From contig CAIUPH010000004.1 in NCBI GenBank assembly GCA_903901015.1, positions 1 through 36,218 on the forward strand: DNA of 36,218 bases, written 5' to 3'. The position numbers and the translations under genes were made by a program. The notes under the pieces were generated by a model, which had not been told where the DNA came from, did no database searches, and saw only the letters and a program-made list of their open reading frames with translations. Numbering within the stretch: the first letter of the stretch is position 1; each line of letters starts with the position of its first letter. Positions 11,763 to 23,855 of this stretch are shown in pieces. This DNA is from Candidatus Bathyarchaeota archaeon. Its GTDB lineage: Archaea; Thermoproteota; Bathyarchaeia; Bathyarchaeales; Bathycorpusculaceae.

Positions 11763-12341
11763 TTGAAATACAAGACTCTGCATCATACAGCCAAGCAAAT
11801 CGACCATTTAATAGACAACTACATACAATCAAGCGGAACCTTGTTTATCCCCCAAGAAGACTTAAAAAACCTGATTTTGAATAATTTTCCCGATTTATAC
11901 GTCAAAGATTTTGGCTGGCACAAGATTGTCTTCGGCATCCGCTCAACAGACCAGAAAGTAGTGATTAAGGTGGGCACCAAAAAAAGCATCGAAAACGACC
12001 ACCGAGCCTACAAGCGGGTTCCCGAAAGCATGCGTCACCAACTGTTTGCTAGAATATTTGGTAACAGCAAATACTGTTTGGTGCAGGAATACGGGTTTGC
12101 AGCACAGGTTTCTCAAGAAGAACTGGCTAGCATAAGAAAAACTGTGTATAGGTACGGTGTTTTTGATGTTAAAGCTGCAAATTTGGTGAGAATCGATGGG
12201 CACCTGTAGATTATCAGTGTGAACGTGGCGCCGTTTCCGCTTCCCACCGTTTGGAGGATGGTTGATGAAGTGAAGCTGAAACTTCCTAAACGATTGATGT
12301 TACCGCTTAAAAAAATAACCAGAATGCTCTGCAATAGATAA
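11763..12341 (+). pseudogene. Protein-kinase-fold gene interrupted by TAG
   Basis: The first 148 residues show kinase-fold features: FGWHKIVFGI, a VAIK-like lysine in KVVIKVGTK, and a catalytic-loop-like DVKAAN in YGVFDVKAANLVRIDGHL. A TAG at 12207-12209 follows at once, and the same frame stays open for 43 more codons (IISVNVAPFPLPTVWRMVDE...) to TAA at 12339-12341. The downstream part reads like the natural continuation, a short C-terminal lobe. The stop most simply arose from AAG or CAG. It starts at TTG 11763. Compared with true kinases the C-lobe is very short and no DFG is seen (ISVN at that place). It may be a pseudogene, a readthrough gene, or genuinely end at the TAG. Confidence 0.6.
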
Positions 12342-12356
12342 ATAGGAAAAAAATGT

Positions 12357-13398
12357 TTAGGTTTTAACTTGTTTTTTTGGGTGCTTGAATTCAACGTACA
12401 CGATGAATCCTGCGCCGACTGGCTCCGAAAGCCGCTATTGTCTCGATGGATGATTCAGGGAGCACCTGTATGTATCCTAAGATGTAGACGTTGGTTGAGA
12501 GAGTTAGCTAGTAGGATGTTCCGATTCCGATAAGGTCCTGCGTTGCGGGGTCTGTGATGTCTACGTATCTTTGGGGCCAGATGCTTTGGGTGGATGCTTC
12601 AACCGCGATGGTTGAGCCTATGAGGGTGTCTGAGGGCACGGTTACGTTTACTTGTGCTTTTCCTTGGCTGTCCGTGAATGCTGACGCGGGTATGACGTAT
12701 GTTGAGTTCAGAAGTTGTGTTTGTCCGTTAAAGTTCAGTGTTGCGTTGAAGAGTACATGAACGTTTGCTCGCGGCGTTCCCGCTGAGGTTGTCAGTTGAG
12801 CGGTAAAGGCTACGGTTTGTCCAGGGTTTGCTTGGATAGCGGACATGTTGCTTGAAATTGGTGAAACCCCGTGGAACTGGTCACCCTGCCGAACGACGTC
12901 TTTGCCCCATGCTTGAGCTGCAATAGCGTCGCCTGCGCTGTCGACGGATGTGTCTAGCCATGATTCGCGGTAGTAGTTGGTTCCTCGAGTATGGTTGAGC
13001 AGTTTTCAAATTGCTACTTGGTCGGCGGCTGCGTCGTTGTTGCTAGCTGCTTGGTTCCAAGTGAGTAGGTAGCTTACTGCTCGCCACTCTGCGTTGTCTG
13101 CGGCAGGTGTTAAGGATGCAGGGTAGGTGCCACCTACAGAGATGACGCGGTCAAAATCCATACAGTAACTGGTGGTTTGGACTGGATTCGATGTGCCATC
13201 GGTTAGGGTTATGGGGATTTCTCCAACATAGTAGCCGCCCAGCGAGAGTTCCTTGTTGCCGTTTGTTTGGCTGAAGGGGTCATTTATGTAAACTGAAATG
13301 GTTGAGTCTGCTTTGACGGTTGCGCTGTAGGCTAGTGCTGTGGATGCGAGCAGGATTAATGTCAGGGCGTATATTGATACTTTTTTTATATGACACAT
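12357..13398 (-). pseudogene. Decayed thioester-domain surface protein
   Basis: One protein of about 345 residues can be followed through three lesions. It begins at ATG 13398 with a signal peptide (VSIYALTLILLASTALAYS). A thioester-domain-like region follows, with C79 in SYCMDFDRV and Q127 in ADQVAI, where the next codon is TGA (13006-13008) in place of the family's expected Trp. The frame continues through KLLNHTRGTNYY and a beta-rich Ig-like part (NPGQTVAFTAQLTTSAG) to a TAG at 12508-12510, then on (YILGYIQVLPESSIETIAAFG) to a one-base shift, after which GAGFIVYVEFKHPKKQ completes a C-terminal membrane anchor, ending at 12357. Cys-Gln thioester proteins are known mainly as adhesins of Gram-positive bacteria. 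Three independent lesions make this a real pseudogene. Confidence 0.8.
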
Positions 13399-13564: not shown

Positions 13565-14929
13565 ATGACGCTCCTCCAAAAGCCCCAGAGCACCCAAAAA
13601 CCCAGCAACTGGCTAGTCGACATCATACAAAAAGTCAACAGCAGCGCACTCGAGCAACAACAAATCATGACTAGAGGCAGAAACGACAGCCTGTGCGTGT
13701 TATGCAAGGGAGCAAGGGCACTATGCGGCAAAACCCGCTGTCCAATAATGGTCAAAGTCAACTATTTCCTCAAAAGCGTTCCGCTCATGTTCTCCGAAGA
13801 CATCAATGGCATGTCTCCACCCAGCGTTTTTATCGGAAGAATCGGCTACCCCAACGTTTATGCTGGACCGCTCGTTCCGCCCGTACACGAAGACACAGGC
13901 ATTTATGATTTGCCTGAGCGGTGGTTTGGGAAGTCGATGGATGAGATCGTGGGTTTTCGCAGTCTTCTTGTGCGTGGTAAACACAGGGTTAACGTGCAGA
14001 AATTCGCGGATGGAGGCAGAATCTTGGATCAAACGCGGGAGTTAGCTCTCGCAGACAGTTGCGTTGACATCGAATTGAATCTCACTAAAAAACCGCGGGG
14101 CTCCATCTACCTTGACGATGATGTGCAGCCTTTTGGTCCTTCGGCGCCCATCCGAGATCTCCATGTGGGCAACGCTCGCTACGACACAAAAATCGAGAAA
14201 GCCTACTACGACACGGATTTGAAGGCAACAAACGCGGTAGTGGAACTTTACAATCGCGGTGTCTTGGTTTCCAAGATTCAGAAGGCTTTCAGCGTCGGCG
14301 CATTTGGCGTAGAGAAGAAACGTCGTCTGGTGCCAACGCGCTGGAGCATCACAGCCGTCGACGACATCATCTCCAAGAACCTGCGGGAAAAAGTCAAGAC
14401 GTTCCCCGAAATTAACGAGTACCGAGTCTACGAATCCATCTACATGGATAACGTGTTTGAGATTCTGATGATTCCTGGGCAGTGGAGTTACGAATCCATG
14501 GAGGCATGGTACCCGGGCACTGTTTGGAACCCCACTGGCCAGAACATCGTCATCTTCTCGGATTGGGAAGGCAACAGCGGACGCACGACATACGCAGCGA
14601 TTGGCGGCTGCTACTACTCGGCGCGTTTAGCCATCTGCGAGCAGCTCCAGAAGGAACGGCGCCAAGCCACAGCCATCGTTTTGCGTGAAGCCAGACCAGG
14701 CTACATCATGCCCATCGGCGTTTGGCAAGTCCGCGAAAACGTCCGAAACGCCATGCACCAGAAACCCTACATGTTCAAGAGCTTAGCCGAATCTCTACAG
14801 TTCATCGGCGGGAGGTTCGAGATTCCAATGCAGCGGTGGATACTCCAAAGCGAACTGTTAAAGAAGGCGCTGTTTCAGAGGCGGATAAGCGATTTCTTCT
14901 CGTCTAAACCGCCTGCTGCACAAGCATAA
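13565..14929 (+). CDS. nreA: Nre-family archaeal DNA repair protein
   Basis: The 454-residue protein matches the Nre family, archaeal proteins implicated in DNA damage repair. It carries an N-terminal zinc-finger pattern, C44/C47/C54/C59 (CX2CX6CX4C), the block FIGRIGYPNVYAGPLVPP, and a long conserved core. The last residues contain QRRISDFF (438-445), an exact QxxhxxFF PCNA-interacting (PIP) motif, as in characterised NreA. The most likely role is PCNA-linked repair of DNA damage. The start is ATG 13565 with no Shine-Dalgarno sequence, perhaps leaderless. It is divergent from the surface-protein remnant, with about 165 nt between. Confidence 0.93.
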   Translation: MTLLQKPQSTQKPSNWLVDIIQKVNSSALEQQQIMTRGRNDSLCVLCKGARALCGKTRCPIMVKVNYFLKSVPLMFSEDINGMSPPSVFIGRIGYPNVYAGPLVPPVHEDTGIYDLPERWFGKSMDEIVGFRSLLVRGKHRVNVQKFADGGRILDQTRELALADSCVDIELNLTKKPRGSIYLDDDVQPFGPSAPIRDLHVGNARYDTKIEKAYYDTDLKATNAVVELYNRGVLVSKIQKAFSVGAFGVEKKRRLVPTRWSITAVDDIISKNLREKVKTFPEINEYRVYESIYMDNVFEILMIPGQWSYESMEAWYPGTVWNPTGQNIVIFSDWEGNSGRTTYAAIGGCYYSARLAICEQLQKERRQATAIVLREARPGYIMPIGVWQVRENVRNAMHQKPYMFKSLAESLQFIGGRFEIPMQRWILQSELLKKALFQRRISDFFSSKPPAAQA

Positions 14930-20148: not shown

Positions 20149-20317
20149 ATTTTTTCCCCCAACTGCCTCTTTCTATTGCATATGCACGTGGGATTTAAAA
20201 CTTGCTAAAACCAGGCAAGCCCAAGGCAGAATAACCCGTTAAAACGCCCCTTTAGCGTCCAAGCCCACGTAATTAAGAGATAATTCCAAAAAAAAGAAGT
20301 GAAGCTAACTTCCACGT

Positions 20318-20502
20318 CTAAGCTTTGAAGAACTGCGAGCGGTTATGTGCGATGCAGCGGAAGCCTTTGGATGCCGAAAAGTACCTTTGGTCTTCAAACG
20401 CATCTGCGTTAAGCGGCCAGCCATGGATGAAAACGACTGGTTGCCCGCTGCCCAGTTCTTGTAGTAGATTTCTGTTCCATCTTTAGTCTTGAATGTTGGC
20501 AT
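20318..20502 (-). pseudogene. Alpha/beta hydrolase (haloperoxidase-type) remnant
   Basis: From ATG 20502 the sequence reads [17 protein letters not shown], the standard opening of non-heme haloperoxidase/esterase proteins. A one-base shift then moves the homology to another frame: [20 protein letters not shown] (oxyanion HGWP region) and [15 protein letters not shown]. It ends at TAG 20318-20320, where the full enzyme would continue for about 200 residues through the nucleophile and catalytic His. So it has both a frameshift and a large 3' deletion. It is a clear dead fragment, not a sequencing artefact. Confidence 0.85.
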
Positions 20503-20619
20503 AGTTAAAAGTCTCCAAAAATCCAGGTTTGCATGCCCAACAAAACTCCACAAAAAAGACAGCAACATGATTATTTACGGGTATATGACTTCAAAACGCA
20601 ATAACAAAAACAATGAAAG

Positions 20620-23054: not shown

Positions 23055-23855
23055 CTAATAATTGCGTAGTCCATTTTTTAATTCTTGGAGCCGCCTGAAT
23101 TTAACAGCTCCTAAAACAACCAGCAGCGAAACCGGCAAGCCCACGATGAAGGCGGAAGCAACCAAGAACGTTGAGTACTCAGGGATTGCCCATACGCTGG
23201 ACGAGGATATCTTCATCATCTGGGTCGTATTGGTCTGTACGTTTCCGCTTGCCTGGATGTATTGCTGGCGCCACTGCACCATCATGCCTGTGGCTTGGTC
23301 AAAGTAAAAATCTGAATTCACCATCATGCCGTTCACAGTTGTGCTCGTGACATAGTGATTAGTTAACCTTGCGCCGCTTGGGTAGGGTATCGACTGCGTG
23401 TCGTTTATGGTTGGGCTCGAAGCCGAAGAGGGAAACATCCGTCCCATCATCCCCATTCCGCGCGCCATGAAAAAGAAGCCCGACGCATCCGCGGGACCGC
23501 CGTACCCTGAACTCGAAGCCGCGCCAGTTCCCACGTTCATACTGCATACCCCAACGTGGCTTAAACCATTCAAATCCTTAAGCGTTGTACCAAAACTCAC
23601 TGAATCACCTGAAACCCCTGTTACATTTATCATGAAATAATCCGTCTCGTTAATCGAGGAAAAAGTTGCCGAAGGAACGGCATGGGGGTCGCTTGAGTTA
23701 AAATAGCAAACGTACCCGTACCGGAAGACGTCGCCGCCCGCTACCCCCACGTTTGACGACATCATCTCACCAAAAACCATGCTAAAAGATGCCGCAGACA
23801 AGACAAACAGGACGAATACTCCGAAAAACACGATTTTCCGCATAAAAAAATACAA
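23055..23855 (-). CDS. Surface protein with signal peptide and C-terminal anchor
   Basis: The 266-residue protein has a signal peptide (KIVFFGVFVLFVLSAASFS), a beta-rich Ser/Gly/Thr/Asn ectodomain with several N-glycosylation sequons (for example NET, NVT, NDT), an unusual Met/Gly-rich patch (MARGMGMMGRMFP, and later Met pairs) and a C-terminal IPEYSTFLVASAFIVGLPVSL membrane segment followed by a basic tail (VKFRRLQ). The PEYS-plus-TM ending resembles PEF-CTERM-type sorting signals of archaea, possibly for an archaeosortase. Function unknown. The Met-rich patch could bind copper or simply be flexible. It is convergent with the gene at 22683. Confidence 0.75.
   Translation of the reverse strand: MYFFMRKIVFFGVFVLFVLSAASFSMVFGEMMSSNVGVAGGDVFRYGYVCYFNSSDPHAVPSATFSSINETDYFMINVTGVSGDSVSFGTTLKDLNGLSHVGVCSMNVGTGAASSSGYGGPADASGFFFMARGMGMMGRMFPSSASSPTINDTQSIPYPSGARLTNHYVTSTTVNGMMVNSDFYFDQATGMMVQWRQQYIQASGNVQTNTTQMMKISSSSVWAIPEYSTFLVASAFIVGLPVSLLVVLGAVKFRRLQELKNGLRNY

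Follow-up and report, generated by a model that had tools for sequence, protein, structure and literature searches.

The locus on the minus strand at 12355-13398 of the window, the whole stretch of 36,218 nucleotides analysed here, raises the question of whether an archaeal genome carries a thioester-domain (TED) surface protein, and if so which residues would form its bond. The family of thioester adhesins, or 'chemical harpoons', has so far been described almost only in Gram-positive bacteria, and in the founding survey TEDs turned up nowhere else (PMC4450167). The most probable reading is of a vertically inherited Bathyarchaeia gene, recently inactivated in this copy, that encodes a short surface protein with a class II-like TED as its single domain.

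Read in its frame, the gene begins with an ATG at 13398 and its features follow on the minus strand. Residues 1-30 (13309-13398) form an N-terminal signal peptide region with a hydrophobic core ending in ...VKA, and hydrophobic N-termini are aligned there in all of the relatives. The codon of C79, the predicted thioester cysteine, is at 13162-13164 in the motif SYCMDF (SYCMDFD in frame) and that of Q127 is at 13018-13020, within an ADQVAI sequence that corresponds to the TQxxPhiW-type motif of the TED alpha2 helix. Just after ADQVAI, codon 131 (13006-13008) is a TGA stop. An inserted Ig-like (Big_1-like) beta-sandwich spans about residues 174-281 (12556-12879), with boundaries transferred from the AlphaFold model of the intact relative L011, and is followed by the codon of Q287 (12538-12540), the predicted thioester glutamine. 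Ten residues past Q287 there is an in-frame TAG at codon 297 (12508-12510). The C-terminal anchor, consisting of a PE motif, a transmembrane segment and a basic tail (12355-12425), is interrupted within the transmembrane segment by a frameshift near 12415, past which it is read in another frame. The TGA, the TAG and the frameshift that an earlier note on this DNA had described can all be placed in the minus-strand frame, and the family Trp that it expected after Q127 is borne out by the ten intact relatives, all of which have Trp at codon 131.

It could be asked whether such a gene is read through, or is intact in the organism. Decoding of TGA or TAG as an amino acid in the host is hardly conceivable. 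The TGA does sit at the family Trp and TAG does occur inside two adjacent genes, but TAG ends 10 and TGA 4 of the 32 clear genes in the window, and the sole match in a search for PylB was weak and generic (30.6 bits, with the cut-off at 348). The frameshift would persist anyway. TGA and TAG are ordinary stops here. An intact gene, in which all three lesions are errors of assembly or sequencing, is improbable. The genome is fragmented (117 contigs), and 5 of 41 conserved columns are broken in the window copy, about as often as in some intact relatives, so that any decay is at most recent. Against this stand three separate lesions within 1 kb and the drastic nature of the changes in the conserved columns, which are W to Y, W to G and, twice, G to E. 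In addition, the adjoining plus-strand gene of unknown family at 11763-12341 is interrupted by an in-frame TAG (12207-12209) at a codon that is Lys in L059 and L064, the two orthologues compared, whereas the majority of genes nearby are open. The window locus is a pseudogene, an assembly artefact being much less likely. The adjoining gene, too, seems either to have become a pseudogene recently or to encode a protein shortened at its C-terminus. Elsewhere in the window, a short minus-strand ORF at 20305-20568, with no Pfam match, resembles alpha/beta hydrolases from an inner start and then stops short; it is possibly another decayed gene.

Intact copies, which the earlier note had thought could exist, were found when the class was searched. 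There are ten in nine other genomes, all of them Bathyarchaeia of the same GTDB family as the window, and those whose titles are given in a second collection are named Candidatus Bathyarchaeota. Their alignments cover almost the full length with 42-56% identity (E 1e-31 to 1e-96), so the resemblance is not due to chance. Within the genus of the window, the gene is kept in 3 of the 32 genomes searched, counting the broken copy. In the window it is divergent from the neighbouring Nre gene (13565-14929, plus strand; Nre_N and Nre_C domains), and the same arrangement is conserved in 8 of the 10 relative loci fetched, which establishes orthology. The locus is old, vertically inherited and often lost. 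One genome, G150, carries two family copies (L006 and L011) on separate contigs, just one of which is beside Nre.

Membership of the TED family is supported by profile matches in the relatives. The Pfam TED profile (PF08341), with a curated cut-off of 22 bits, matches 10 of the 11 family members; L008 (25.5 bits) and L007 (23.3 bits) are above the cut-off, and in the genome search the TED also passes in G156 and G146. The window copy reaches 15.1 bits, under the cut-off. Searched alone, PF08341 gave no match in the window genome, because of divergence and the stops. The second half of the family proteins matches Big_1-type Ig domains, with up to 40.7 bits (L010) and a sub-threshold match in the window copy. 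Matches to MG2, MG4 and C5 are confined to this Ig-like insert. PF19781 (DUF6266) was matched by the window copy at 1.6e-4, under its own cut-off, and was seen in no other member, so the match was discarded. Sequence searches of the PDB with the archaeal family returned nothing real, and a search with the pLS20 TED returned no TED either. Comparison by hhalign with nine plasmid-borne class II TEDs of the pLS20 family was not significant; the local alignment still paired both Cys motifs. The [YFL]C motif of the bond-forming Cys is present as YCM or YCI in all 11 members. In the alpha2 TQxxPhiW-type motif, which is usual but not obligatory in TEDs, the Gln is found in 10 of 11 and the Trp in all 10 intact members, and the Thr is lost.

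The fold points in the same direction. The AlphaFold model of L011, made from eleven sequences, has a mean pLDDT of 87.7 and runs from strands, one of which ends in the Cys, through helices at 98-109, 115-129 and 141-154 to a beta-sandwich and then a QDL strand. A slipknot is one mark of class II TEDs. Another is a beta-sandwich inserted between alpha3 and the hairpin that bears the Gln (PMC6194298), and in the L011 model the insert is at this position, after the third helix. In a fold search with the model, class II TEDs (6FWY and 6FWV) take the first four places among PDB chains, with E-values from 3.6e-9 (6FWY) to 2.2e-7 over alignments of 296-307 columns; the class I domains CpTIE and Cpa rank lower, near E 1e-3. 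The TM-scores to class II TEDs are low, at 0.29-0.34 with an rmsd of 11-13 A, which would mean that the sequential arrangement in the model agrees with class II while the two-lobe packing differs or is wrongly modelled. The read-through protein of the window itself, modelled from its single sequence, is uninformative (pLDDT 34.8). The TED interpretation of the intact relatives is supported, and with it the proposal of a TED-type surface protein in an archaeon, by the Pfam matches in relatives together with the class II fold matches.

The choice of the glutamine that would pair with C79 depends on how known TEDs are built. The bonding Cys and Gln are the only residues conserved throughout TEDs; in the characterised domains the Gln that forms the bond belongs to a late beta-strand with the motif PhiQzetaPhiPhi, and not to TQxA(I/V)W, and mutagenesis has demonstrated that the Gln and Trp of the alpha2 TQxxPhiW motif, which adjoin the thioester, are dispensable for the bond (PMC4450167; PMC6194298). 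In class I the Gln follows the Cys by 129-153 residues, in class II by 171-204 (PMC4450167; PMC6194298), with published class II values of 171 for SaTIE and 204 for EfmTIE86 (PMC6194298), and 188 for TIEpLS20. In the order of the L011 model, the archaeal QVAIW is on the second helix (115-129), ahead of the third helix (141-154), the beta-sandwich and xQDL[IL]. This last motif is invariant in all 11 members at class II spacing from the Cys, although the residue before its Gln is often polar (K, R, N or T), so that it corresponds weakly to PhiQzetaPhiPhi. C79 and Q287 are each conserved in 11 of 11, 175-208 residues apart across the members, and Q287 is the sole Gln conserved throughout. The position of Q127 is occupied by Ala (residue 121) in the intact orthologue L002 of genome G025, a hint from nature that the Gln of the alpha2 motif is dispensable. 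Given this substitution, the published dispensability of the TQxxPhiW Gln and the conservation of Q287 at class II spacing, the likely partner of C79 in these sequences is Q287, not Q127.

The earlier note had the thioester Cys right, as far as conservation of the predicted residue and its [YFL]C motif can tell, but its pairing of C79 with Q127 has to be given up as very improbable. In its favour, conservation is high at both positions, and known TEDs do have their alpha2 Gln next to the thioester. Every characterised TED nevertheless forms the bond with a Gln on the late strand and never with that of TQxxPhiW, and L002 has Ala at the position. The refutation proposed in the earlier note, a fold with C79 and Q127 far apart, would also mislead, because the alpha2 Gln of known TEDs adjoins the thioester without forming it. 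It is unlikely, though a more serious objection, that the proteins have the TED fold but no longer form a thioester, and act non-covalently as ordinary surface or S-layer-associated proteins whose Cys and Gln are structural only. The sequences are distant from characterised TEDs and L002 is without the helix motif Gln, both of which could be read in this way. The change in L002, however, affects a position that is dispensable for the bond, and Q287 is the one Gln at 11 of 11. A disulfide is also unlikely to explain the universal Cys, because none of the other Cys positions in the 11-sequence alignment is conserved throughout.

With a C79-Q287 bond as the preferred reading, the family can be set beside the known thioester systems. 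It shares with class II TEDs (EfmTIE86-TED 6FWY, BaTIE 6FWV and TIEpLS20; PF08341) the YC motif, the QxxPhiW helix motif, the three-helix head and the beta-sandwich after helix 3 as seen in the L011 model, and a late conserved Gln at equal spacing from the Cys. It differs from them in its archaeal host, in a mature protein that is a single TED on a short tether, without an isopeptide or ester stalk, in a VPE-transmembrane-basic tail in place of the LPXTG anchor, in its Big_1-like insert and in the lost Thr of TQxxPhiW, and the profile-profile match between the two is not significant. Neither isopeptide or ester-domain stalks nor LPXTG sortase anchors were found in the family proteins, and they are therefore not TIE proteins. 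The class I TEDs (SfbI, CpTIE 5A0G and Cpa 4C0Z) share the Cys, helix and Gln logic and give weaker fold matches; they have a C-Q spacing of 129-153 and no inserted beta-sandwich, unlike the archaeal family. The internal Cys-Gln chemistry would also be common to the complement/alpha-2-macroglobulin superfamily, if the thioester forms here. In that superfamily the two residues are only a short way apart, within a GCGEQ-type motif of an alpha-helical toroid.

From their sequences, the intact relatives are predicted to leave the cell by way of the signal peptide and to stay anchored in the membrane through the C-terminal VPE-transmembrane-basic tail. The archaeal C-terminal anchor noted earlier is present, as a PE-transmembrane-basic tail, in both the window copy and the relatives. 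Such a tail resembles the tripartite PEP-CTERM-like signals, although none of the NCBIfam C-terminal signal models matched the family tails. The window genome encodes a protein of the exosortase/archaeosortase family (PF09721, E 7e-14), and an enzyme of this type may process the tail. Related genomes have the same PE-type anchor on further surface proteins. In the window itself, a secreted protein with no Pfam match (23055-23855, minus strand) carries the TED protein's type of anchor, in the form of an IPEYS-transmembrane-basic tail. At the cell surface the head, as modelled and matched in the fold search, would be a beta-barrel with three helices and the Ig-like domain inserted after helix 3. 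By analogy with bacterial TEDs, an internal thioester is predicted to form between C79 and Q287; attack on it by an amine of a partner surface would then leave the protein covalently attached to that partner.

Other archaeal TEDs were also identified. Class I-like domains without the insert are present in L027 and L047 (both G290) and in L042 and L043 (G289 and G303), from other families of the same phylum, with 111-124 residues between the Cys and PhiQzetaPhiPhi. L027 is minimal, its 223 residues consisting of a signal peptide, a TED and a PEFSEG-transmembrane tail. A 391-residue TED protein in G001, of the same genus as the window (L040 / L075), is bacterial in appearance and near a contig end, and may be due to contamination or transfer. 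No case of an archaeal TED was found in the open-licence literature; annotation databases may already list archaeal TED matches.

The balance leans slightly towards archaea having both class I-like and class II-like TEDs on membrane anchors of their own, so that covalent attachment through thioesters would not be a Gram-positive speciality, and towards one such locus, beside Nre in the Bathyarchaeia, being old, vertical and often lost. The case of Q127 illustrates that a conserved Gln close to a Cys is insufficient for assigning thioester chemistry. With intact sequences available, the thioester is open to a direct test by mass spectrometry. Should the bond form in the intact relatives, archaea would have covalent adhesins, and the uncultured Bathyarchaeia would gain a candidate molecule for attaching to other cells or surfaces.
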